The notes under the pieces are model-generated. The model was not told the origin of the DNA. It searched no databases and saw only the letters and a list, made by a program, of their open reading frames with translations. A DNA stretch of 64,000 nucleotides from Malacoplasma penetrans HF-2 (GTDB taxonomy: Bacteria; Bacillota_I; Bacilli_A; Mycoplasmatales; Mycoplasmoidaceae), in NCBI RefSeq assembly GCF_000011225.1, contig NC_004432.1:992001-1056000 (forward strand). Reading direction: 5' to 3'. Made by a program: the position numbers and the translations under genes. Below are positions 20,111-60,781 of the stretch, in pieces; position 1 is the stretch's first letter, and each line of letters begins with the position of its first letter.

Positions 20111-23100
20111 CTATTTTAATAATCTTCTAATTTTATTTCTTCTAACTATATATAAAGCAATTGCTAAAGAAACTAAAGTAATTCCAACCACACTTGTAAT
20201 TACCGCAACTGATAAACTCATGTTTCTAATACTTGCAAATTTTGGACTTCAGCTAACTCCAAAAGTTTGGGTAGTACTAATAGAATCATATGTGCTTGAT
20301 TTTGCGTAAACAGTAAACTCAAATGTTTCACCATTTCATCTATAGTCAAAGATTGTAATAGTGTCACCTTGTGAACTATCATATCCATTAATAGTTAAGA
20401 TACTCAATATATCTGTTGAAGATAGTGCAGCATTAACATTATTGTTAGCAATTAATGATCTATAGCTAGTGCTGTTTCTATCAATTGAAATATTATATGT
20501 GCTTCCAATTGGTAACAACCCTGCATATCTTTGATAAATTACACCATCTTTTAAACCTAATTGGTTAGCAAAAGGAGTTTCAGAGAATGGAATATATTCA
20601 TCTTTTGCATTTAATAAGTTACTAGAAACTGATTTACTAAAATCTATTTTTAATAAGAATGAACCATATTCACTATCATATGTTGTAGTACCTTCACTTC
20701 CATTTTGTTCTTGAACAAAAGTAACTTCAGGAGTGAATCCCATATAGTTAATTAAGTTTGAACTATATAAAGTAGAGAATTCATTTGGACTTACATCAGA
20801 AACTAATTTTGTACCATAATCAGAAAAACCACTAACTGTAGTTACATCTAAAATATTGTTTTGTTCAGAAGGGAATGGAGAAGTTCCAGAAGGTGTTAAT
20901 AAATCTGTTTTTCTAGAACCTTGGAATCTAACACTACTTTTAGCATAGTTTGTAATTCCAGTATATCTAATAGCAAATTTACTAGGAGTATTGTTAGACA
21001 AGTTGTTATATTGAACTACAATCACAATATTTCCATTTTCATCATCTGGGAATAATGTAATAGTAGGATTATTTGGATACTTATCTTTAGTAGTAATAAA
21101 GTAATCGTTTACTGAATTTGGATTTCATAATGATGGTAATACATTAGCATATTGAGTTAAATTTCCTTCTAATGTCCCAACATCTACTGTTAAGAATTTT
21201 TCAGAACCATTTGTTAAAACACTTTGAGCTTCTGCTAATAAATCAGTAATACTAGAACTAGATTTATCTACTTTTGGTTTATCTGCATCTGTTTGACCAG
21301 CAAATGCAAAAGCATAAGTTGCAGCTGCTTTTTTAACAGTATATTGTTTATCATTAGCCATTGCATAACTAACAATTGAACCATATGCATTTTTATAAGT
21401 AACAGTAGCTTTTAGAGTAATTTGTCCAGCATTGTCATTTTTAGTAACAATAGCAAAGTTTATATTTAAATTACTATTTTGTAATGCCAATACACTTGAT
21501 GGAATAGAAACAATTGAAGTTGCATTTCTTTTTAAAATATCTGTACTAATTTGAGATGGTTCTAATCTTGCAATATCAGCAGGTAAATTAGAAGCTCAAG
21601 TTGTTGCAGTTTGAATATTTGTAAATGTAAATTTACCAATTAAGAAACCTCTTGAGTTAAATTCTGAAGTTTGAGATCCATTACCATATCAAGAACCTAC
21701 TAAAGTATAAGGAACTTTTACATATAGAGTTCCTGAAATATCATCAGCAATTAAAATAGCATTTGAAGTTTCTAAAGTTACATTAGATAAGCTAGTGTTG
21801 TTTTTAGTAATGTTAGTACTATTTACACCACTTGGAATTGAACTACTTCCAGCATTTGAAACATTGAAAGATGGAGCACTTGATTGTGAAGTAAATTGAT
21901 TTGAAATCACACTACCATTTAAAAATCCTGTTCCAATAAAACCATTAGAACTTAATAAATAACCTGTATAACTTCTAGAAATTAAGTTGTCACTACTAGA
22001 AGAAGCAGAACTTAAAACTGGGAAAATCTGAGTTGTTTTTGCATTCTCTTCTTTTCCAGCAAAAGTTGCTCCTAAAGTTGTTGGAATATCCATTTTATTA
22101 AATGAATTTGAAACCAACATTGTGTTAACTTCTTTAGATTCTGTGGTTTTAAAATAAATTTGATTATTTACATCAATAAATGCAGAGTTAATACTTCCTG
22201 TAGTTATTGAGAAACCACCTAAATTACTATTAGAAGAACTTAATAAATCTGTAAAAGTAGAGTTAGACATTAAAGACTTATTTAAAGAAACACTGTAAAT
22301 TTTGTTTTGAATAAAAATTACATAATCACTATTTCTTTTAAAACCATTAATATAAATATCACTAGCTTTAGTGCCTGTTAAAGATACAGATTGTGTTTTA
22401 GAACTAGTTATTTGATTCAAATCATCATTAACAAAATCCAATGAAAAATTTACATTACCATTTGTATCAGTAACTTGTGAAGTACTGGTTACAGCAATTG
22501 TGTAGTTAACATCTAGTGGAATCAAAGCAAATAAATGTTTAGAAGACAAAAAAGTAGATGTAATTTTAGCTGAATTAACCATACCTGTTTGTGGTTCAAT
22601 TGTTAAGACTTGAGGATTAGTAGTTTTACTATTTCACAAATAAACAGAATTATTAAAATCAATAATTTGAATTTTGTCTACACTATTCCCCACTTCACTT
22701 GTAGAAACAATAGTTCCAGTTTTAGAAGAAACAATAATTAAATATTGAGTATCTGTTAATACATATAAATTATCAGTTTTATGGTTATAAGCTCAGTCAA
22801 CTACTTTAGTACCTGCTTTTGTGAAATCAATTGCAGAAGAAGTTGATGTACTAAATCATGCAGCAGAATAATATCCATTGTTTTGACCGCTTGCAGAATT
22901 TAAAGTAATATATCAAGCTGGGTTTCCATATCAGTCAGTTGCACCAAATGATCTTGCTTCATCAAATAACAAAATAGGTCCATTATCATTAGATAAGTTT
23001 TTAAAACTATTTTGTTGATAATAACTTGTAGGAATTGAGATTTGTGCATTTTGAGTTTCTGTTGCCAAATTTTTTAACCCACTAGCTGTTGCTTTTGTTG

Positions 23101-23242
23101 AAGCACTAGTAACATCTAAACTAGAATCAGTTTTAGAAATGTTATTGGAAATATTAGAAGTGCTAGCAAGTTGAACAAAACCAACTGCTGATAATGCTGA
23201 TGTTGCAAATACAGAAGCTAATAATATTTTTTTCTTATTCAT
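20111..23242 (-). CDS. Large surface protein, family 2 copy 1
   Basis: This gene encodes 1043 residues. The signal peptide MNKKKILLASVFATSALSAV has no lipobox Cys. A strongly conserved block follows (SYYQQNSFKNLSNDNGPIL near residues 78-97). The next ~350 residues contain repeated hydrophobic-strand motifs such as KVVDWAYNHKTDNLYVLTDT, which look like a beta-propeller. A second half carries three units of an acidic turn plus G-x-[LI]-x-V-x-V (near 500, 610 and 735). One membrane span near 1009-1032 is followed by a basic tail, RRNKIRRLLK. The protein should therefore be anchored by its C-terminus with most of it outside. The ATG at 23242 follows TAAGGG. A G8 tract on the coding strand lies about 132-139 nt upstream. 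The exact role is unknown; adhesion or antigenic variation is plausible. Confidence 0.75.
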
Positions 23243-23538
23243 ATTTATTACCCTTACAACCAAATTAAATATAAATTTGTTTAAAAGAATTTAATTAGGA
23301 TATATCTAATTAAATTCACATTATTTTTTCATAATATTTATATTTTAACTTAAAAAGTACCCAAAATGTAGCGCCCCCCCCTGTTTTAATTAGTGGTTAT
23401 GTTTAGTAAATATATAGAACTAAAAAGAATTTATTTCTGGTTTTTATGACTTAATTAATATCTTAAAAAATATGTAGTATGTTTATTGAAACAATTTGTT
23501 AATTATATTCACTTTATTTAATTTTAATAACAGCAATT
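23243..23538 (-). promoter_or_regulatory. Upstream region of family 2 copy 1
   Basis: No ORF is visible in these 296 bp. A block conserved with the other family 2 copies (minus strand TTGGGTA...TTTTTAAGTTAAAATA, about 23343-23363) probably carries the promoter. A run of eight G on the coding strand lies directly upstream of that block. The rest is very AT-rich. Confidence 0.5.
23374..23381 (-). repeat. G8 homopolymer upstream of a surface-protein promoter
   Basis: Eight consecutive C on the plus strand (G on the coding strand), flanked by GCG, in otherwise AT-rich spacer DNA. The corresponding position upstream of family 2 copy 2 has no G tract. Its place next to the conserved promoter block makes it a candidate slippage switch. 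Confidence 0.8.
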
Positions 23539-45798: not shown

Positions 45799-48700
45799 TT
45801 AAAAGTTTTTAGTTTTAGCAAGAAGTTGCTGTCTTCTTTGCATTCTTCTCTTTCTTTCTTGCTCTTCTTGAAGTCTAGTAGAAAGTTTTTTAGCAATAGT
45901 TTTCATATCTCTTCTTTGTTGGATATATCCAAATACTACTACTGGAATAATTAATAGAATCATTGGAACAATTGCTGAAGCTGCAACTACTGCTCAATTA
46001 GTTCCAACAGAAGTATCAATTACTCTAGCAAATCCTGTATAAGTTTTTGAGCTTTCTTGTAATACAGTATTTGTAGTTGGATCTAATACTGAAACATTTA
46101 AAGTTAATGTTCCTGTATAGTTATCATATGAATAACTTGTTTTAATTTTATAGTTATCAGATGAGTTTGAGATACTGAATAGTTGAGTAAGTAATGCATT
46201 ATTTTGAGCAGCTTCAGAAGGAATTAATTGTCTTAATGCTGTTAAAGCAGCATTATTACTAGTTCCATCTTCTGCATTAAATGTAATTGTAGGTTGTAAT
46301 AATGAAGTAGTTCCAAGTCCTGAGATTGTAGTTGAGTATTCTACCAATTGACCTTTCTGTAAAATAACTGCAGTTACAACTAATGTTCCTAATGTATCAT
46401 CAGCTTGTAAAGTTACAGCTTTTACTAAACTTGGATCTGCTTCAAGTTCTGCATTTAAGTCACTCGATAGATCTGCAAAGTAAGTTAATCTTCTATATAG
46501 TGCTTCACGAGTACTTGAACTTGTTCCAGTATCATCAAACTCCCCAGAAGTTGCTGTTGTTACTAATGCACTTGGTAATTTTGCACTATTGTTATTTAAG
46601 AAGGCTGAATTTGTATTTGTTTTTCAAACAATCATGTTTGAACTTTGATCACCAGTTGCAAATCCACCAATTGCTCTAGTGAATGTTTTAGTAGATGATA
46701 TTGAACCATTTTCACTGTAGTTTTTTAACACTACTTCAACTTCTAAAATACCATTCACATTTGAAGGTGTTAAAGTTATTGTTGCTAATCCATTAGCAAC
46801 TCAAGTTGATAAGTTGGCATTATTACTCAACAATGCACTAGATATAATTTCACTTTGTGTAACTGATGAAGGCAATCTGTTTGCATCAGCTGAATATCCT
46901 GTTCCAAAACTAAAACTACTTGTTTGGTTATTTGTACTTATGTTTGTAGATCCAGTTGATGTGTTTTGTTGGAATCCTGTAAATGTTGCAGATAAATTTG
47001 TAGAACTAATTCCAGGAAGAGAAGTATTAGTATCAGTTGTTGATAAACTTAAAGTTAAGAAACCTGATCTATCATCATAAGTTGCTTTAACATCTAATTT
47101 CTTTTGAACTATTAAATTAGAATAGTAATCTGAAAAGACCGCAAAATGTTGAAGCATTGCAATTTTATCTTTTGTATTTCCATTAAATGTATTTGCAATA
47201 CTTGAAGCAGATAAGCTTGATATATCTTTTGTATCTATTTGAGTTACTTGGCTAGCTGATTTTCATCCAAAGTAAACACTTTGAGATGCAGAAGCATCTT
47301 TCATGAAAATACTAGGTGTAGTAAATGAAACTGTGTAATCTTCATTTGGATCAATTTTAGGGAAAGTTATACTTACAAAAGCATTCCCATCTTTATCATT
47401 TGGAACAATTGTTACATTATCACTACTTCCATCTTCATTAAAAGTCGGTAATACTATTGAACCATTTGCAACATTTGATGAGTTTAAAAATGCTGATCCT
47501 AAAACCAAGAAATCATCATAGTAGTTTTTAGCTGTAATTTGAGATGGTAGTTTAGTTGAGTATTTGTCAGTTAAAGATTTAACTTTTGCTGAGTTGCTTG
47601 AATTTGCAGCATAAGTTGAATCTACTGGAGTAACTGAAGCATTTGAACTTCCATCACTTGCAAACCCAAATCTATTGTATTTAAAGAATGGACTAGTAGA
47701 ATTTCCATAAGTGAAAATTCAAGTACCTGATGATGCTGATAATGCATTATTTCTTCAGTAATAAGGAACAGCAACATTTATAGTTAATGTTCCAGAAATA
47801 TCATCACCTGATGCAGTAATTGTAGGATTTACAATGTTTTGCATATTTAAGAATGTTGTAATGAAATTATAGTTATCAGAGTCTCCTGATGAAGAACTAT
47901 TAATCAAACTAACAATTTGAGAAGGATACATGTCTAATACATATTGAGGTATTGTTAGTTTTGTAAGTTGTGTATAACTATCATAATCTGTATATGCATT
48001 AGTACCTTCATTTTGGTTATTAATAGTTCCTACACCATAGTAGAAAGTATAAGTGTATGATCCTATCACCATTGTTGTATATTCTTGAGTAACATTACCA
48101 CCAGCACTTATTTTTCTTAAGTTTTGTGTAAATACTAAAGTTATTGTGTTGTTAGTGTTTGGATTTAATGGATTAGTAGCACTATCACCAAAATAATAAT
48201 TGTTATTACTTGGATTAGAACTATCATAATTGTAAATTGATACAGTAACACTAGGGTCAGTTGTTATTTGGCCATCAGTTGAAACTACAGTTAAAAAATC
48301 TTTTCATGATGTAGTTGAGTTAATATAAGAAATGAAATCTGTATCAAAAGAACCACCATTACTATTAACTACTCTTTTGAATAAAACAGAAGAATCAACT
48401 TCATTTTGAGATTTAAAAATAAAGTCTCCAGCTTTTTCATAAGAATCTGATGAATATAATGAATCTCATTGTCCCACTAAATTACTATCATTCATCTTAA
48501 CAAATTTACCATCTGTCATTTGCGCATATCAAACAGAAGATAAGTCACTTCCAGATAATGTGTAAATATTGTAAACTGTACCAACATTATAAATAGAGCT
48601 ACTAAAATCATACATTTCACTAACATATTTAAAATTAGCATCTAATTTCAAAACTTGGTTAGTTGAAGTTAATGCATAGTAACCATAAACATTTTGGTAA

Positions 48701-50142
48701 TCATTTAATGAGTAATATGGAACAATTTGTGAAATGAATCCAGATGTAGAAAATCCACTATATTCATATGCAACTGGTGCTGTAACTTGACTAAAAGCAA
48801 TTGCATCAAAAGATGCATATCCATATTTAGTTTGATTAGGAATACTTACAACAATATTAATAACTGCAGTTGTAGATGATAATTTAGAGTTGTAATAAAT
48901 TAGAGTATTAAACAGTTTAGATCCAGTTGTTAAACCAATACTTGAGAAATCAATATTTTGATAATTGCTTGCCTGACTAATAGCAATATTTGTATTAACA
49001 TTGTTTGTTAATAAATCAGATCTAACTAATAATAGGGATTTACCATCAAGTGTTGTACTATTACTTTGGAAGATAAAGAAAAATCTTGAGTTAATGTTAT
49101 TAACATAAATTGGTTTGTATACTGGTGAAGAACTAGCTCCATCCATAGACTGTACAAAACTAGAAAAATTGCTAAATGTAATAGTATGTGAAGTAGCAGT
49201 TTCTGTTTTACTATTAAATAATGAGTTAGAAACATTAACATAGTTCCCAGTATAATCACTAGTACTATTATTTATATCTCCTAACTGAAGAACTTCCATA
49301 GAGTTAGTAGAAACCCCATCCATAACTAGGAAATTATAATCATTTATATTAGTAGAGTCTTTAGATAAAATAGCTGCTAATCTATAACTTCCTGAATTTT
49401 TATCTCCAGTAATATCATTAGTAGTTACTAGGTTTCAATTAATTTGGAATAAGTAACTCCCTTTTAAATTTTCACTACCTGAAGTCCCATCAATAGAAGC
49501 CAAAACAAAAAGTGAAGGTGGTGAAGAATTACCACCAGCAGAGTGTAACATTGCTTTAAAATTTAAAGTTATACCTGTAGTGTTACTTGCTTCTGTTCCA
49601 GTAACTTGCTTAGTCACTAATTTAATTAAGTCATCAGAAGTTACAACCCATTGAGTTGTACCAGGATTAGTTGTGGTTGATGTATTTCCATTAGTGGTTG
49701 TAACTTGAGTAGACAAAAATTTAGCAACAGCATCCTTATTATCATATTTTACAAAAGTAGCGTATCCAGCACCTGAACTAGTAGAGTCATCTACTGCAGT
49801 ATGCTGAACAATAGAAGGAATTGAAACAGTTGAAGTGTCATAATTTGATTGCCCATTTTGCATAGTCATATCAAATGGATAAACTGTTAATTTGGTATTA
49901 TCAACAGTATTACCATTGGCAACAAAATCATTATTATTATCATTATCTCCCATACCACTAACGGCAGTGTTTTGAGTAGCTAATGAAATAGTCCTAGAAC
50001 TAATATTATTTTGTGAAAAATCCTTTGATTTTGACAAAGTTTTATCATTATTAATAACAAAGGTAGCAGATGCTCCTGCTAAAATTGATGCTCCAGTAAT
50101 CATAGTTGCTTTTAATAATTTAGATTTTTTAAATGCACCCAT
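45799..50142 (-). CDS. Giant surface protein, family 3 copy 1
   Basis: This gene encodes 1447 residues. A signal peptide (MGAFKKSKLLKATMITGASI) without lipobox Cys is followed by a Ser/Asn/Thr-rich stretch. A propeller-like region (residues ~220-540) has motifs such as YRLAAILSKD and FLVMDGVSTNSMEV. From about residue 775 on, a motif of acidic turn plus G-x-[LF]-x-[LV] recurs: GDDISGTLTINVAV, NDKDGNAFVSITF, YDDRSGFLTLSL, VNGILEVEVV, ADDTLGTLVVTAV and YDNYTGTLTLNV. Several units end in a T-[FY]-T-G-F-like strand, as in PF04200 domains. A single span near 1384-1407 leads into a ~40-residue Arg/Gln-rich tail. The start at 50142 is the ATG shared by the family. The role is probably cell-surface; adhesin is a guess. 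Confidence 0.75.
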
Positions 50143-50183: not shown

Positions 50184-50211
50184 CTATTATTAAATAATAA
50201 AAAATAGTCAA
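50184..50211 (-). promoter_or_regulatory. Putative promoter of family 3 copy 1
   Basis: On the minus strand TTGACT, a 16-nt spacer and TAATAG, in a block that is conserved upstream of copy 2 (TTTGATTTTGnCT...TTTAATAA). It implies a leader of about 35 nt. Confidence 0.6.
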
Positions 50212-50282
50212 AATCAAATTTCAAAATGCCAATTTTTTACATTTATTTATATTAAATTTTTATTTTTTAAATAAGAGTAAAT

Positions 50283-50319: not shown

Positions 50320-53300
50320 TTAAAAGTTTTTAGTTTTAACAAGAAGTTGCTGTCTTCTTTGCATTCTTCTCTTTCTTTCTTGCTCTTCTTGAAGTCTAGT
50401 AGAAAGTTTTTTAGCAATAGTTTTCATATCTCTTCTTTGTTGAATATATCCAAATAATACTACTGGAATAATTAATAGAATCATTGGAACAATTGCTGAA
50501 GCTGCAACTACAGCTCAATTAGTTCCAACAGAAGTATCAATTACTCTAGCAAATCCTGTATAAGTTTTTGAACTTTCTTGCAATACAGTATTTGTAGTTG
50601 GATCTAATACTGAAACATTTAAAGTTAATGTCCCAGTATAGTTGTCATATGAATAACTTGTTTCAATTTTGTAGTTATCAGATGAGTTAGAGATACTGAA
50701 TAACTGAGTAAGTAATGCATTATTTTGAGCAGCTTCAGAAGGAATTAATTGTCTTAATGCTGTTAAAGCAGTATTGTTACTAGTTCCATCTTCTGCATTA
50801 AATGTAATTGTAGGTTGTAGTAATGAAGTTGTTCCTAGACCTGAGATTGTAGTTGAGTATTCTACTAGTTGTCCTTTTTGTAAGATAACTGCAGTTACAA
50901 CTAATGTTCCTAAAGTATCATCAGCTTGTAAAGTTACAGCTTTTACTAAACTTGGATCAGCTTCAAGTTCTGCATTTAAATCACTTGATAGATCTGCAAA
51001 GTAAGTTAATCTCCTATATAGTGCTTGTTCTGCGTTTGAACCACTAGTATCATCAAACTCTCCAGAAGTTGCAGTTGTTACTAATGCACTTGGTAATTTT
51101 GCACTGTTGTTATTTAAGAATGCTGAGTTAGTATTTGTTTTTCAAACAATCATGTTTGAACTTTGATCACCAGTTGCAAATCCACCAATTGCTCTAGTGA
51201 ATGTTCTTGTAGATGATATTGAACCACTTTCACTATAGTTTTTTAAAACTACTTCAACTTCTAAAATACCATTAACATTTGAAGGCGTTAAAGTAATTGT
51301 TGCTAATCCATTAGCAATTCAAGTTGATAAGTTAGAACTACTTAATAATGAACTAGATAAAATTTCACTTTCAGTAACTGATGAAGGTAATCTAGTTGAA
51401 TCTGCTTGATAAGATCCAAAAGTAAAATTACTTGTTTGTTCACTAGAAGTAATATTTGTAGATCCATTAGCAGTATCAGTTTTAAATCCTGTAAATGTTG
51501 TAGATAAGCTAGTTGAACTAATTCCAGGAAGTGAAACAGTGTTATCTTTTGCAGATAAAGTCAATGTTAAGAATCCTGATTTATCATCATAAGTTGCTTT
51601 AATATTTAGTTGTTTTTGTATTAATAAATTAGCATAGTAATCAGAGAAAACTGCAAAATTTTGAAGTGTTGATATTTTATCTCTAACATTACTTCCATTA
51701 AAAATAGAAGCAATACCAGAGGCAGATACATTGTTTATATTGTTTGAATCTATTTGAGTAACTTGGCTAGTCGATTTTCATCCAAAGTAAACACTTTGAG
51801 ATGCAGAAGCATCTTTCATGAAAATACTTGGAGTTGTGAAAGATACTGTGTAATCTTCAGCTGGATCAATTTTAGGGAAAGTTATGCTTACAAAAGCATT
51901 CCCATCTTTATCGTTTGGAACAATAGTTACATTTTCACTACTTCCATCTTCATTAAAAGTAGGAAGTTGAATTGAACCACTTGAAATATTAGATGTATTT
52001 AAGAATGCTGAACCTAAAACCAAGAAATCATCATAGTAGTTTTTAGCTGTAACTTGAGATGGTAACTTAGTTGAATATTTATCAGTTAAAGATTTAACTT
52101 TTGCAGCATTGCTTGAATTTGTAGCATAAGTTGAATCAACTGGAGTAACTGAAGCATTTGAACTTCCATCACTTGAAAACCCAAATCAGTTGTATTTAAA
52201 GAAAGGGCTAGTTGAATTTCCATAAGTAAAAATTCAAGTACCAGATGATGCTGATAATGCACCACTTCTTCAGTAATAAGGAACAGCAACATTTATAGTT
52301 AATGTTCCGGAAATATCATCACCAGATGCAGTAATTGTAGGGTTTACAATGTTTTGCATATTTAAGAATGTTGTGATGAAATTGTAGTTGTCAGAATCCC
52401 CAGAAGAAGAACTATTAATTAAACTCACAATTTGAGAAGGATACATATCAAGTACATATTGAGGAATAGTTAACCCAGTTAATTGACTATAAGTGTTGTA
52501 GTCTGCATATGCATTTGTACCTTCATTTTGGTTGTTAATTTTCCCTTCACCATAATAAAAGGTATAAGTGTATGATCCAATAATCATTGTTGTGAATTCA
52601 TCAGTTACAGTTCCACCAGCGTTTATTTTTCTTAAATTTTGAGTAAAGACTAAAGTAATTGAATTGTTTCCTGATGCTGTAAGTTTATTGGTTGCATTTT
52701 GCCCAAAATAATAAGAATCTTTATTAGCATAATTATAAATAGATACAGTAACACTAGGATCTGTTGTAATTTGACCATCTTTTGAAACTACAGTTAAAAA
52801 GTCTTTTCAAGATGTAGTTGAATTGATATAAGTATTAAAATCTGTGTTGAAATCAGTAGCAGTATCACTATCTACAATTCTCTTGAATAAAACAGAAGAA
52901 TCAACTTCATCTTGAGATTTAAAAATAAAATCACCAGCCTTTTCATATGATTCACTAGTATACAATGAATCTCATTGTCCTACTAAATTACTATCATTCA
53001 TTTTTACAAATTTACCATCTTTCATTTGTGCATATCAAACAGAAGATAAATCACTTCCAGATAGTGTGTAAATATTGTAAACTGAACCAACATTATAAAT
53101 AGAGCTACTAAAATCATACATTTCACTAACATATTTAAAATTAGCATCTAATTTTAAAACCTGGTTAGTTGAAGTCAAGGCATAATAACCATAAATATTC
53201 TGATAATCATTTAATGAATAATATGGAACAATTTGTGAAATAAATCCAGAAGTAGAAAATCCACTGTATTCATATGCTACTGGCGCAGTTACTTGACTAA

Positions 53301-54654
53301 AAGCAATTGCATCAAAAGATGCATACCCATATTTAGTTTGTCCTGGAATACTTACAACAATATTAATAACAGCAGTTGTAGATGATAGTTTAGAGTTGTA
53401 ATAAATTAATGTATTAAATAACTTACTATTGTTTTCAAGACCTAAATTAGAGAAATTAAGATTTGTAAAATTGCTAGTATTTGAAATTGTAATATTAGTG
53501 TTAACATTATTTGTTAATAAATCTGATCTTACTAAAAGCAATGATTTATCATCAATTGATGATGTATTATCACTTTGGAAAATAAAGAAAAATCTTGAGT
53601 TAATGTTATTAACATAAATTGGTTTGTATTTAGGGGATTGATTACTCATTGTTTGAATAAAATTAGAGTATCCGCTAAGAGATATAGTATGAGAAGATTG
53701 AGATTCTGAATTACTATTAAATAATGAATTAGAAACATTAACATAGTGACCTTCATAACCACTGTCTGAAGATATTTCTCCTAACTCTATTACTTCCATA
53801 GAGTTTGTAGACACACCATCCATGACTAAAAAATTGTAATCTATTATATCAGATGTATCTTTTGATAAAATTGCTGCAAGTCTATAACTACCTGCATCCT
53901 TATCACCTGTAATATCATTACTTGTTACCTGATTCCAATTTATTTGGAATAAATAACTACCCTTTAAATCCTGACTATTTGACTGTCCAGTTGCATCTTC
54001 TATTGAGGCAAGAACGAAAAGTGAGGGAGGAGAAGAATTTCCTCCTGCTGAATGTAACATTGCTTTGTATTTTAAACTGTACTTAGCTACATCACTGTCA
54101 TTAAGATCACTATTTTTAACTTTTTTGTGAGCTAATTTTATCAAATCATCAGAAGTAACAACTCACTGTGTTGACCCTGGATTAGTTACAGTTGGTTGTG
54201 TTTGACCACTTGTTGTAGATGTAACTTGTGTAGATAAAAATTTAGCAACCGATTCTTTGTTATTGTATTTTACAAAAGTTGCATAACCAGCTCCTGAACT
54301 AGTTGAATCATCTATTGCAGTGTGTTGGATTATAGAGGGAAATGAAAAAGTTGAAGTTTCATAACTTCCACTACTTTGAGTCATATCAAAAGGATAAATT
54401 TCCATGTTTGAATTATTTATAGAATTATTATTTTTTTCAAAATCATTAGCACTATCAGAATCTGACATACCACTAACTGCAGTTTCTTTATTAGCAGAAC
54501 TTATAGCTCTAATACTAGAATTTTGTGAAAAACTACTTGAATTTGACAAAATTTTGTCATTATTTATAGCAAAACTGACTGAAGAAGCAGTTAAAACTGC
54601 AGCTCCAGCAAAAATAGTAGCCTTTAATATTTTAGATTTTTTGAATATACTCAT
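50320..54654 (-). CDS. Giant surface protein, family 3 copy 2
   Basis: This gene encodes 1444 residues. The signal MSIFKKSKILKATIFAGAAV lacks a lipobox. It is very close to copy 1 over most of its length, including the repeated GDDISGTLTINVAV, NDKDGNAFVSITF and YDDKSGFLTLTL units, the membrane span and the basic tail (RRMQRRQQLLVKTKNF). Differences concentrate in the first 350 residues (for example the IEDATGQSNSQD and SSDSGYEGHYV segments) and in short Ser/Asn loops. Spacing between ATG and the conserved GGGTTGGTG upstream is longer than in copy 1, so translation may be weaker. It is monocistronic by terminator and promoter position. Confidence 0.75.
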
Positions 54655-54699: not shown

Positions 54700-54727
54700 T
54701 CTTTATTAAACAATAAAAAAGAGACAA
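54700..54727 (-). promoter_or_regulatory. Putative promoter of family 3 copy 2
   Basis: On the minus strand TTGTCT, a 16-nt spacer and TAAAGA, aligned with the copy 1 promoter. Both boxes are slightly further from consensus than those of copy 1. Confidence 0.5.
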
Positions 54728-54853
54728 AATCAAATAAGCAAACTAATTAGTATATAACAATTTTTAAATTTTTTACTAAAAATTTTAAATTAAATAAATA
54801 ACTAAATCAGTACTAAAACATAGTAAAAATAGGTGATTTCAAATATGTGTAAA

Positions 54854-54890: not shown

Positions 54891-57800
54891 TTAAAAGTTT
54901 TTAGTTTTCACAAGAAGTTGCTGTCTTCTTTGCATTCTTCTCTTTCTTTCTTGTTCTTCTTGAAGTCTAGTAGAAAGTTTTTTAGCAATAGTTTTCATAT
55001 CTCTTCTTTGTTGAATATATCCAAATACTACTACTGGAATAATTAATAGAACCATTGGAACAATTGCAGATGCTGCAACTACTGCTCAATTAGTTCCAAC
55101 AGAAGTATCAATTACTCTAGCAAATCCTGTATAAGTTTTAGAACTTTCTTGTAACACTGTATTTGTAGTTGGATCTAATACTGAAACATTTAAAGTTAAT
55201 GTTCCTGTATAGTTGTCATATGAATAACTTGTTTCAATTTTGTAGTTATCAGATGAGTTTGTAATACTGAATAACTGAGTAAGTAATGTATTATTTTGAG
55301 CAGCTTCAGAAGGAATTAATTGTCTTAATGCTGTTAAAGCAGCATTGTTGCTTGTTCCATCTTCTGCATTAAATGTAATTGTAGGTTGTAATAATGAAGT
55401 TGTTCCTAAACCTGAGATTGTAGTTGAGTATTCTACTAACTGACCTTTTTGTAAGATAACTGCAGTTACAACTAATGTTCCTAAAGTATCATCAGCTTGT
55501 AAAGTTACAGCTTTTACTAAACTTGGATCAGCTTCAAGTTCTGCATTTAAGTCACTTGATAAATCTGCAAAGTAAGTTAATCTTCTATATAATGCTTGAG
55601 TTGCTGTTGAGCTACTTCCAGTATCATCAAACTCTCCAGAAGTTGCAGTTGTTACTAATGCACTTGGTAATTTTGCACTGTTGTTATTTAGGAATGCTGA
55701 GTTGGTATTTGTTTTTCAAACAATCATGTTTGAACTTTGATCACCAGTTGCAAATCCACCAATTGCTCTAGTAAATGTTCTTGTAGATGATATAGTAGAA
55801 TTTTCACTATAGTTTTTTAATACTACTTCAACTTCTAAAATACCGTTTACATTAGATGGTGTTAATGTAATTGTTGCTAATCCACTATCAATTCAACTTG
55901 ATAAGTTGCTGTTATCTCTTAATAATGAACTAGATAAAATTTCAGATTGTGTAATTGAAGATGGTAATTTTGAAGAATCAGCTGAATAAGTTCCAAAACT
56001 AAAATTTGTAGTTTGTTCACTTGTTAAAATGTTATTAGTTCCATTATTTGCATCTATTTTAAATCCAGTAAATGTTGTAGATAATTTAGTTGAACTAATT
56101 CCTGGGATTGAAATTGTGCTATCTTTAACTGTTAAAGTTAATGTTAAGAATCCTGATTTATCATCATAAGTTGCTTTAACATCTAATTTCTTTTGAACTA
56201 TTAAATTTGCATAATAATCTGAGAAAACTGCAAAGTGTTGAAGCATTGATATTTTATCTTTTGAGTTAATTCCATTAAATGTATTAGCAATATTAGAAGG
56301 AAGAATATCTGAAATGCTTTTGTTATCAATTTGAGTAACTTGACTAGCTGATTTTCATCCAAAGTATACACTTTGAGATGCTGATGCATCTTTCATAAAA
56401 ATACTAGGTGTAGTAAATGAAACTGTATAGTTATCAGTTGGATCAATTCTTGGGAAAGTTATACTTACAAATGCATTTCCTTCTTTATCATTTGGAACAA
56501 TAGTTACATTTTCACTACTTCCATCTTCATTGAAACTTGGTAACACAATAGAACCATTTGCAATATTTGAACTATTTAAGAATGCTGAACCTAAAACTAA
56601 GAAATCATCATAGTAGTTTTTAGCTGTAATTTGAGATGGTAATTTAGTTGAGTATTTATCAGTTAATGATTTAACTTTTGCTGCATTACTTGTATTAGAT
56701 GCATAAGTTGAATCCACTGGAGTAACTGAAGCATTTGAACTTCCATCACTTGCAAACCCAAATCTGTTATGTTTGAAGAATGGACTTGTTGAAGTTCCAT
56801 AAGTGAAAATTCAAGTACCTGAAGATGATAATACCCCATTTCTTCAATAATATGGAACAGCAACATTTATTGTTAATGTTCCTGAAATATCATCACCAGA
56901 TGCAGTAATTGTAGGGTTTACAATGTTTTGCATATTTAAGAAAGTTGTAATGAAATTGTAGTTATCAGAATCACCAGAAGAAGAACTGTTAATTAAACTC
57001 ACAATTTGAGAAGGGTACATGTCCAGTACATATTGAGGGATGGTTAAATTTGTTTGCTGTCTATAGATATCATAATCAGCATATGCATTAGTACCTTCAT
57101 TTTGGTTGTTAATTTTACCTTCACCATAATAGAAAGTATAAGTATAAGAGCCAATTACCATTGTTGTGAAATCTTGGGTAACAGTTCCACCTGCATTTAT
57201 TTTTCTTAAATTTTGAGTAAAAACTAAAGTTATAGAGTTGTTAGTGTTAGCATTAAGTTTATTTTGAGCATTAGTACCAAAATAATAATCATTACTTCCT
57301 GTAGAACTGTAATTATAAATAGAAACAGTAATGCTAGGATCAGTAGTAATTTGTCCATCAGTTGAAACAACAGTTAAGAAATCTTTTCAAGCAGTAGATG
57401 AACTTATATAAGAAATAAAATCTGCTGCAAAAGAAGTACCACCTGTATCAACCACTCTTTTGAATAAAACTGAAGAATCCACTTCATCTTGTGATTTGAA
57501 AATAAAGTCTCCAGCTTTTTCATATGACTCACTAGTATATAGTGAATCTCATTGACCAACTAAATTGCTGTCATTCATTTTAACAAAATTACCATTAGTC
57601 ATTTGAGCATATCAAACAGAAGATAAATCTGTTCCTGCTAATGTGTATATGTTGTAAACTGTACCAACATTATAAATAGAACTGCTAAAGTCATACATTT
57701 CACTAACATATTTAAAAGTTGCATCTAATTTTAAAACTTGGTTAGTTGAAGTTAATGCATAGTAACCATAAACATTTTGGTAATCATTTAATGAGTAATA

Positions 57801-59245
57801 TGGAATAATTTGTGAAATAAATCCAGATGTAGAAAATCCACTATATTCATATGCAACTGGTGCAGTAACTTGATTGAAAGAAATAGCATCAAATGAAGCA
57901 TATCCATATTTAGTTTGACCTGGGATACTTACAACAATATTAATAACTGCAGTTGTAGAAGATAATTTAGAGTTGTAATAAATTAAAGTGTTAAATAATT
58001 TATTACTGCTGTTAGTTAAGCCAATAGTTGAAAAATCAATATTTTTTAAATTATCAGCTTGATTTATTGTAATGTCTGTATCAACATGGTTTGTTAATAA
58101 ATCAGATCTAATTAGAACTAAAGATTTACTATCTATTGCAGTGCTGCTACTTGAATTTTGAAAAATAAAGAAGAATCTTGAATTAATGTTATTAACATAA
58201 ATTGGTTTATAAGTTTGACCTGTTGTTAAAACTGAAGACATCACTGAATTACTTACTGTAATGCTGTGTGAGGTTGCAGTTGCATTAGAACTTTCAAATA
58301 AAGAGTTTGAAACATTTACATAATTTCCACTATAGTCAGTACTACCACCATTAGTTGTCATATCTCCCAATTGAAGAACTTCCATAGAGTTAGTAGAAAC
58401 ACCATCCATTACTAAAAAGTTGTAGTCAATTACATCAGTTGTATCTTTTGATAAAACTGCAGCCAGCCTATAACTTCCAGCTTTTTTATCACCGGTAATG
58501 TTTGTATTTGAATCTTCTAAAGCATTTCAATTTATTTGAAATAAATAACTTCCATTAATGTCTGTAGAACTTGTGTTTTCTATTTTAGCTAGAACAAAAA
58601 GCGATGCAGGAGAAGAATTACCACCAGATGAATGTAGCATAGCCCTAAAAGTTAATTTGTAATCAGCAGTTACTGAAGATAAATCTGTTCCTTTTACCTG
58701 TTTGTGAGCTAATTTTATTAAATCATCTGATGTTACAACTCATTGTGTTTCTCCGGGATTTTTAGCTGTAGATTGGCCACCAGATGATGTAGACTGTTCT
58801 TTTACAGATAAAAATTTGGCTACTGATTCCTTATTGTCATATTTTACAAAGTTGCATATCCAGCTCCAGGTGTAGTGGTATCATCATTTGCTGTATTTTG
58901 TATTATAGATGGTATGCTATATGTTTCAGTTTGATAATTACCACCTTGTTGGTTCATATCAAAAGGATAAATAACCATTTTACTATGATCTATATTTGTA
59001 TTAGTGTTTGGCAAAAAATCATTAGTAGAATCTGTTGAACTCATCCCACTTGTAGCAGTTTGTTTTTGTGCACTATCAGCACCTCTAGTAGAAGCACCAG
59101 TTGATGAATTTTGTGCTAAAGATGATGCTCTAGACACATTATCATTATTTACATTTAGTCCAATAGATAAACTTGCTGCTGTTAAAACAGAAGCACCAGC
59201 ACATATCATGGTTTTTAAAACTTTAGATTTTTTAATCAAACTCAT
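54891..59245 (-). pseudogene. Giant surface protein, family 3 copy 3 (frameshifted)
   Basis: The paralogue starts MSLIKKSKVLKTMICAGASV and reads for 133 residues to GAGYATL-stop (TAA at 58844-58846). Copies 1 and 2 read GAGYATFVKY here: a T4 on the coding strand has become T3 (plus strand ACAAAG at 58846-58851 instead of ACAAAAG). One base added back restores an open frame to 54891, with the full family layout, membrane span and tail. No second lesion is seen, so the defect is recent, switchable or an assembly error. The promoter region also differs by carrying a 16-nt homopolymer. As encoded, only a short secreted or signal-anchored fragment would be made. Confidence 0.8.
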
Positions 59246-59315
59246 AATTTAAAATACCAATTCCTTAAATGATAAAAAACTATATAAAAGACACTATATA
59301 TATTAATTTGACAGC

Positions 59316-59331
59316 AAAAAAAAAAAAAAAA
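59316..59331 (-). repeat. T16 (coding strand) homopolymer in a surface-gene promoter region
   Basis: Sixteen A on the plus strand, 71-86 nt before the ATG of family 3 copy 3. It follows TTG on the coding strand where copies 1 and 2 have TTGACT/TTGTCT, and an AT-alternating -10-like run lies downstream. Poly(A/T) spacer length controls phase-variable lipoprotein genes in some mycoplasmas. Confidence 0.8.
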
Positions 59332-59480
59332 CAAGACTTGATTTTAAGATTTTAGTAATTTTTTGATAAATTTTAATTATAAACCCAATTAAAAATAATG
59401 ATTAAAAAGTTTTAGTTTTTAATATTTTTAATAAAAAACTAAATATTAAAATTTAAGTAAAAATACTTATAAATTAACAG

Positions 59481-59514
59481 CTCCCGTTTTGCATAATTTT
59501 ATGCAAAATGGGAG
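59481..59514. promoter_or_regulatory. Long palindrome just before the ATPase ribosome-binding site
   Basis: CTCCCGTTTTGCATAA and TTATGCAAAATGGGAG form a near-perfect palindrome (one G-T mismatch) with almost no loop. It ends 3 nt before AAGG and 13 nt before the ATG. No T-run follows on either strand, so a terminator is unlikely; an operator or an RNA hairpin controlling translation fits better. Confidence 0.7.
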
Positions 59515-59527
59515 TTAAGGTAAAAAT

Positions 59528-60781
59528 ATGATAAAAAGAAACATATTAAATACAGTGAAAAATTTATTGGAACTATATCCAATTATTTTACTTACAGGTG
59601 CAAGACAAGTTGGAAAAACTACATTAGTTTCTCAATTCCAAAAAGAAAGTAATTATAAATATATTTCTTTAGATGATAAAGAAATTTTAGAATTAGCAAT
59701 AAAAGACCCAGTTAAATTATTAAGAGATTTTTCTCCACCTTTAATAATAGATGAAGTACAAAAAGCAACTAATCTTTTTGACCATATTACTAGTATTGTT
59801 AATGAAACAAGAAGAACTAAAGGCAATAAAGAAGCTAATGGGATGTTTATATTAACAAGTTCATTAAAGTATCATTCAATGAAAAATGTAACTGAATCAA
59901 TGGCTGGAAGAGTTGCAATTATAGAAATGCCACCACTTAGTCAAAGTGAAATAAATAATCAAATTGAAAATCCCTTTTTTATTGATTCACAATCAATTGA
60001 ACCAATAATAAAAAGATCTTCTTATGAATATAAGATAAATCAAGAAGATTTATTTGAAAGTATTATCAATGGTTTTTACCCCATCAACTGAACTGACCAA
60101 AAAATTAAACCTAGTGTATTTTATAAAAACTACTTAAAAACATATTTAGAAAGAGATGTAAGTCAATTAATTAACTTAAAAGATAAAAATAAATTCAATA
60201 GTTTTATCAAGTTATTAGCTAGCAGCACTGCAAATGATTTTATTCCTGAAAAACTAGCAAATGATATTGGAGTAGATAAGAAAACTATTAGTTCATGAAC
60301 ATCAATATTAGAAGCAGGGGATATCATTTCTTTACTAGAACCTTATAATGAACAATCAATGAGTAAAAGAGTATCTAAAAAGAAAAGAATTTATTTTAAT
60401 GATACAGGTCTTGTTTGTTATCTATTAAATATTTCTAGTCAAAGAAATATAACAAACAAAAATAAAGGAAAATTAGTAGAAACTTATATTTTTAATGAAA
60501 TAAAAAAATCATATTTAAACAATGGAGTTGTATATGATTTTAGCTATTATAGAGATTCAAATCAGAATGAAATAGATTTGATTATTTTTAACTATGATAA
60601 AGGTAGTTTAAATTTAATAGAGTGTAAATCTGGAACTAATTATGGTTTAAAAGATATTAAAGGATTTAAACAATTGCAAACCACAAATTATGAAATTAGT
60701 GGTCAAACAATTATTTGTTTAACTGATGAACCATATCGTTTAAATGGAACAACTATAGTTTTACCAATTACTGCTATTTAA
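59528..60781 (+). CDS. AAA ATPase with DUF4143-type C-terminal domain
   Basis: This gene encodes 417 residues, read through TGA-Trp codons at about 60089 and 60297. The N-terminal AAA_14 module has Walker A LLTGARQVGKTTL (about residues 20-32), Walker B LIIDEVQKA near 77-85, and a sensor-like FILTSS. The middle segment YLERDVSQLINLKD and the helix-turn-helix-like LANDIGVDKKTISSW are characteristic of the DUF4143 group. The C-terminal part has EIDLIIF...LIECKSG, a D...E-x-K nuclease-like core. The cellular role of this family is unknown. It is the only + strand gene in the last 13 kb. The ATG at 59528 follows AAGG at 8 nt. Confidence 0.85.

Follow-up and report, generated by a model that had tools for sequence, protein, structure and literature searches.

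A T16 tract in the promoter of a frameshifted, predicted giant surface-protein gene of Malacoplasma penetrans is probably a length-dependent switch

The window analyzed in this work, a stretch of 64,000 nucleotides of the Malacoplasma penetrans HF-2 genome (C1:992001-1056000), carries three minus-strand copies of a giant gene, referred to below as family 3. Copies 1 (45799-50142, ATG at 50142) and 2 (50320-54654) are intact and encode proteins of 1447 and 1444 amino acids, respectively. Translation of copy 3 with genetic code 4 revealed a first open reading frame (58844-59245) of 133 codons, which starts with a signal-peptide-like N terminus, is 58% identical to copy 2 and ends prematurely with a stop at codon 134, while the paralogous frame resumes at about 58856 and continues, shifted relative to the N-terminal part, for about 1320 codons (54891-58856; 82% identity to copy 2). 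The frameshift reported by the first-pass annotation is thus present in the deposited sequence. A Lipoprotein_17 match was found near the C terminus of all three copies (slightly below the curated cut-off in copy 2), and this domain, the signal-peptide-like N terminus and the large paralogous family mark the products as predicted surface proteins. The dN/dS ratio of copy 3 versus copies 1 and 2 was 0.17-0.19 over the 1249-codon open reading frame and did not change whether copy 3 was included or not, which is evidence that copy 3 remained functional up to the recent past. Since the gene is otherwise conserved and carries a single frameshift, this lesion appears to be either recent or a sequencing error. 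Furthermore, no long repeat contains the site of the frameshift; a second, slippage-based switch is therefore not expected there, and the proposal that expression varies at two levels had to be abandoned. Because of the frameshift, the deposited sequence should not yield a full-length product, whichever state the promoter discussed below is in.

The ATG of copy 3 is at 59245, and 71 nt upstream of it, in intergenic DNA, positions 59316-59331 of the plus strand are occupied by exactly 16 A, i.e. by T16 on the coding (minus) strand. The homopolymer described earlier as following a TTG was borne out by direct reading: its 5' neighbor is TTG (59334-59332) and its 3' neighbor is GCTGTCAAATTAATATATATAG, so that the coding strand around the tract reads AAGTCTTG-T16-GCTGTCAAATTAATATATATAGTGTC...ATG. 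Pattern searches across the whole genome (1,358,633 bases, single contig) indicated that 16 nt is the maximum length of any A/T run and that runs of at least 10 nt occur at only six positions (10, 11, 15, 10, 13, and 16 nt). In contrast, a third-order Markov model derived from a 264-kb sample of this genome predicted about 168 runs of at least 10 nt and about 0.7 of at least 16 nt. In the 264-kb sample, A/T runs of 7 nt (n = 327) and 8 nt (n = 47) were found, none of 9-15 nt, and only the T16 was longer. These counts, compared with the Markov null, indicate that long A/T runs are disfavored in the genome, with T16 as an outlier, a pure homopolymer beyond what the genome leads one to expect. 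The T16 run is not a chance product.

Several other repeats were noted in the course of these searches. The second longest A/T run is a T15 on the coding strand (L026 4029-4043; C1:813128-813142), located 10 nt before a TACAAT and 43 nt before a family-2 glycosyltransferase open reading frame (PF13641, E = 6.7e-21); as it forms A10-GGGG-T15 behind glpK, it could be a terminator. G/C runs of at least 8 nt occur at only eight places genome-wide. The longest, C15 (L025 6656-6670), is intergenic and lies beside an open reading frame for an IS-like transposase (IstA-like by eye). A run of 9 (L027 3985-3993) is found in an N6_N4_Mtase DNA methyltransferase gene that is split into two open reading frames at C9, and a run of 11 (L029 4023-4033) in an Eco57I-type methyltransferase gene, where C11 is in frame; both are candidates for phase-variable methylation. 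In three lipoprotein-like paralogs (MLLKKLLLIGGGVVVGS...), G8, G9, and G8 occur within the signal-peptide codons (L028 3951-3958, 9820-9828, and 10791-10798), and translational phase variation is likely in this group, in which the G9 copy is out of frame. Within the window, a C8 on the plus strand (23374-23381; G8 on the coding strand) lies 132 nt upstream of the gene at 20111-23242, and the other copies of family 2 have no G run at that place.

Training of promoter models for M. penetrans by expectation maximization yielded no usable -10/-35 matrix, as the models drifted to terminator T runs or to noise, and a search for further copies of the copy-3 promoter at the DNA level returned weak AT-rich matches only. 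Since a usable -35 signal did not emerge from hexamer and spacing enrichment over 147 upstream regions either, the promoter assignment was based on an alignment of seven family-3 promoters, namely those of copies 1, 2, and 3 and of four sister-species orthologs. The orthologs, which are intact and about 50% identical, have TTGATA-N17-(G)ATAAT upstream of the ATG at a distance of about 42-48 nt, and the conserved family-3 promoter derived from the alignment is TTGAT(T/A)-N17-(G/T)(A/T)TAAT. In both copy 1 (50189-50217, minus strand) and copy 2 (54705-54733, minus strand) it takes the form TTGATT-N17-TTTAAT. The promoter block that these two copies had been said to share is indeed common to them; however, the TTGACT/TTGTCT proposed as their -35 element falls inside the aligned spacer, and the -35 was moved 6 nt upstream to TTGATT because the four orthologs keep TTGATA-N17-(G)ATAAT at this place. 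The homopolymer is absent from the promoters of both paralogs and all four orthologs. In the alignment, it covers the 3' end of the -35 element together with the larger part of the spacer, and copy 3 retains only the TTG (59332-59334, minus strand), a candidate -35 start that reads TTGTTT with the bases of the tract, and the column-invariant TAAT, with T16-GCTGTCAA between them. From the alignment and from spacer arithmetic, the candidate -10 is ATTAATAT (59300-59307, minus strand), which contains the TAAT core. The AT-alternating stretch that had been regarded as -10-like therefore does contain the invariant TAAT, but it has no consensus TATAAT. Measured from TTGTTT, the spacer would be 21 nt to ATTAAT and 23 nt to TAATAT, and a 17-nt spacer leads only to a poor TCAAAT. 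The tract is thus placed between a TTG and a conserved TAAT, with both hexamers weak, and since the spacer would amount to about 21-23 nt at T16, the deposited state is predicted to be weak or OFF if the aligned -10 is used.

T runs upstream of genes are also found at the ends of intrinsic terminators, and in M. penetrans the P35 (MpPF1) genes are switched by promoter inversion (PMC2268961, PMC10502178), with their 12-bp inverted repeats visible at about -245 and -98; T16 might accordingly be a terminator tail or a part of a P35-type invertible promoter. Both readings were rejected and we consider them very improbable. No stem-loop precedes the tract (the hairpin is no stronger than in shuffled sequences, z = 0.58), no terminator was predicted (0), and the nearest upstream gene is divergent. 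Around the copy-3 promoter, unlike in the P35 genes, there is no comparable pair of exact inverted repeats of about 12 bp, only AT-rich partial matches. As a separate observation, positions 59481-59514 form an almost perfect inverted repeat (CTCCCGTTTTGCATAA/TTATGCAAAATGGGAG; 16-bp arms, 2-nt loop) directly ahead of the divergent gene for AAA_14/DUF4143 (59528-60781); this repeat may be an operator or attenuator.

We surveyed all 52 A/T runs of at least 12 nt in five well-assembled Malacoplasma genomes, inspecting their flanks and using 7-8-nt runs from the same loci as controls. Fifty of the 52 runs were intergenic. T was on the coding strand upstream of a gene in 33 cases versus 6 in the opposite orientation (p = 1.4e-5; 49 versus 41 for control runs), the base after the run was G in 34 of 52 (17% in controls), and of the 35 tracts in promoter orientation, 19 had a TTG no more than 6 nt away on their 5' side, as did 3 of the 53 controls. 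Of the 35 downstream genes, 26 code for an N terminus of the lipoprotein or signal type, a contrast that is not clean, as the control loci were enriched for the same genes. In a single-contig relative (G001), seven copies of a module ACTTGC-Tn-GAGTATACT (with wider flanks, agACTTGC-Tn-GAGTATACTttttgtaaatttt) precede tandem lipoprotein genes, with n = 19, 16, 19, 19, 19, 19, and 18, and in a second sister species (G002) three copies of CTTGAC-Tn-GATAAGGT (5' flank acTTGAC), with n = 19, 18, and 16, also precede tandem lipoprotein genes. Counted from TTGCTT or TTGACT, T16 in these modules gives a spacer of 17 nt (optimal), T18 of 19 nt, and T19 of 20 nt. Near-identical flanks combined with different tract lengths among paralogs are the trace that would be expected of a slippage switch. 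An orthologous lipoprotein promoter in four draft sister species had T26, T19, T18, and T23, although tract lengths in these draft assemblies (G004, G006-G008) may reflect assembly error. A family-wide pattern search found runs of T13 or longer before TANAAT in 29 of 95 genomes, the match counts being inflated by overlaps. At the sister loci L141, L142, and L152 (G001, G002), spacer tracts of T16-T19 precede every one of a set of tandem lipoprotein and giant surface-protein genes, among them P35/MpPF1 paralogs, and orthologs of an NTP_transferase (nucleotidyltransferase-like) gene were seen behind T18 (G001, L146 8396-8413) and T15 (G009, L155 2529), where the tracts possibly confer phase-variable modification of the surface with sugar or choline.

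The class that emerges from the genus is TTG(AC/C)-T15-19-G(A)(G)-TANNNT. Copy 3 shares with it T on the coding strand, TTG on the 5' side, and G on the 3' side. By its sequence, however, it is atypical for the class, because the predicted -10 is farther off: it is poor and located 8-17 nt from the tract (the nearest plausible starts 8-10 nt after it), as opposed to 1-3 nt in the clean families, and the short G/GA/GAG + TANNNT that comes after the tract in those families is missing. Since sister species carry many similar length-varying runs before surface lipoprotein genes, the copy-3 T16 probably acts as a switch of a type already described, in which tract length decides between on and off. 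Slippage of DNA polymerase on the tract, which fills the greater part of the spacer as well as the -35 element in its 3' half, would alter the distance and the helical phase between TTG/-35 and -10, and the altered spacing would turn copy-3 transcription up or down.

This is the type of control described for maa2, vlp, and vmm. The maa2 gene of Mycoplasma arthritidis and the vlp genes of M. hyorhinis resemble copy 3 in that the promoter spacer ahead of a surface-protein gene contains a repeat tract; copy 3 differs from these systems in its weak -10, which stands at a greater distance from the tract, in its frameshift, and in that its switching is putative. The promoter repeat of vmm in M. mycoides subsp. 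mycoides SC is a dinucleotide, whereas in copy 3 the AT-alternating stretch 3' of T16 is short and falls within the -10 region. The likeness to vmm consists in indels of the spacer between -35 and -10, which switch transcription of vlp, maa2, and vmm ON or OFF (PMC2268961). The vlp tract is composed of A (PMC10502178), as opposed to the copy-3 tract, which reads T on the coding strand. The analogy with vlp drawn by the first-pass annotation was strengthened by the sister species, in which the same class of T tract, 16, 18, or 19 nt long and giving spacers of 17-20 nt, stands between TTGAC/TTGC and -10 before lipoprotein genes; it was weakened by the 21-23-nt spacer of copy 3 and by the example of vpma. 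In the vpma genes of M. agalactiae, a T tract likewise lies directly upstream of the -10 of surface lipoprotein genes; it was reported not to cause phase variation, and vpma switching is due to Xer1 inversion (PMC2268961). The precedent thus cuts both ways, and a tract alone is no proof of a switch.

The same precedent speaks for a static promoter element, in which T16 would replace the -35 as an AT-rich UP-like or curved segment and set or raise basal transcription with no switching. The M. penetrans glycosyltransferase gene mentioned above and a sister lipoprotein gene, in both of which a good -10 follows the tract after 9-10 nt and an upstream TTG is lacking, would also fit such a role. However, a static element does not require a pure 16-nt homopolymer, and the lengths of 16, 18, and 19 among paralogs with near-identical flanks (G001, G002) point to instability of the class; we therefore hold this explanation to be rather improbable. 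The main rival, unlikely in our view though less so than the static element, is decay: copy 3 would be a pseudogene, and the tract a (near-)neutral slippage expansion in a promoter freed from selection. The frameshift, which stands against the switch since the gene could be simply decaying, the poor -10, and the lack of the tract in paralogs and orthologs all agree with it. On the other hand, one lesion in about 1450 codons and a dN/dS of about 0.18 suggest that the gene is not long dead or that the frameshift stems from a sequencing error, long A/T runs are nearly missing elsewhere in the genome, intergenic regions included, and the copy-3 tract shows the TTG and G borders of the genus class. 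Taken together, we somewhat favor the reading of T16 as a slippage-prone spacer tract of the maa2/vlp kind in the copy-3 promoter.

Antigenic variation of M. penetrans is known through P35 promoter inversion (PMC2268961, PMC10502178). The P35/Mpl genes (MpPF1, PF07668) thus offer phase-variable surface-antigen promoters from the same species as copy 3, but they switch by inversion between 12-bp inverted repeats, where copy 3 has a homopolymer. Pfam MpPF1 ("M penetrans paralogue family 1") had 53 matches in this genome. The repeats that we found at about -245 and -98 agree with the published invertible promoters (PMC2268961, PMC10502178), and none of the 53 matches in the M. penetrans genome adjoins an A/T run of at least 10 nt. 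By contrast, T16-T19 tracts lie directly upstream of MpPF1 genes in both relatives, namely of four of the eight in G001 and of three of the four in G002. Given inverted repeats and no tracts in M. penetrans versus T16-T19 in these two relatives, one antigen family seems to be served by two different switches within one genus. These observations bring us, with evenly divided confidence, to a Malacoplasma-wide poly-T spacer phasome, which would control P35/MpPF1 genes in at least two sister species, while M. penetrans would rely on inversion for its 53 MpPF1 genes and have only two long T-tract promoters, those of copy 3 and of the family-2 glycosyltransferase. The genus comparison predicts that a 17-nt spacer corresponds to the ON state and a 19-20-nt spacer to the OFF state. 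If this is true, the MpPF1 antigen family would have exchanged one switch mechanism for another within a single genus, and a second, slippage-based layer acting on a giant surface-protein family and a glycosyltransferase would widen the variable surface of M. penetrans.
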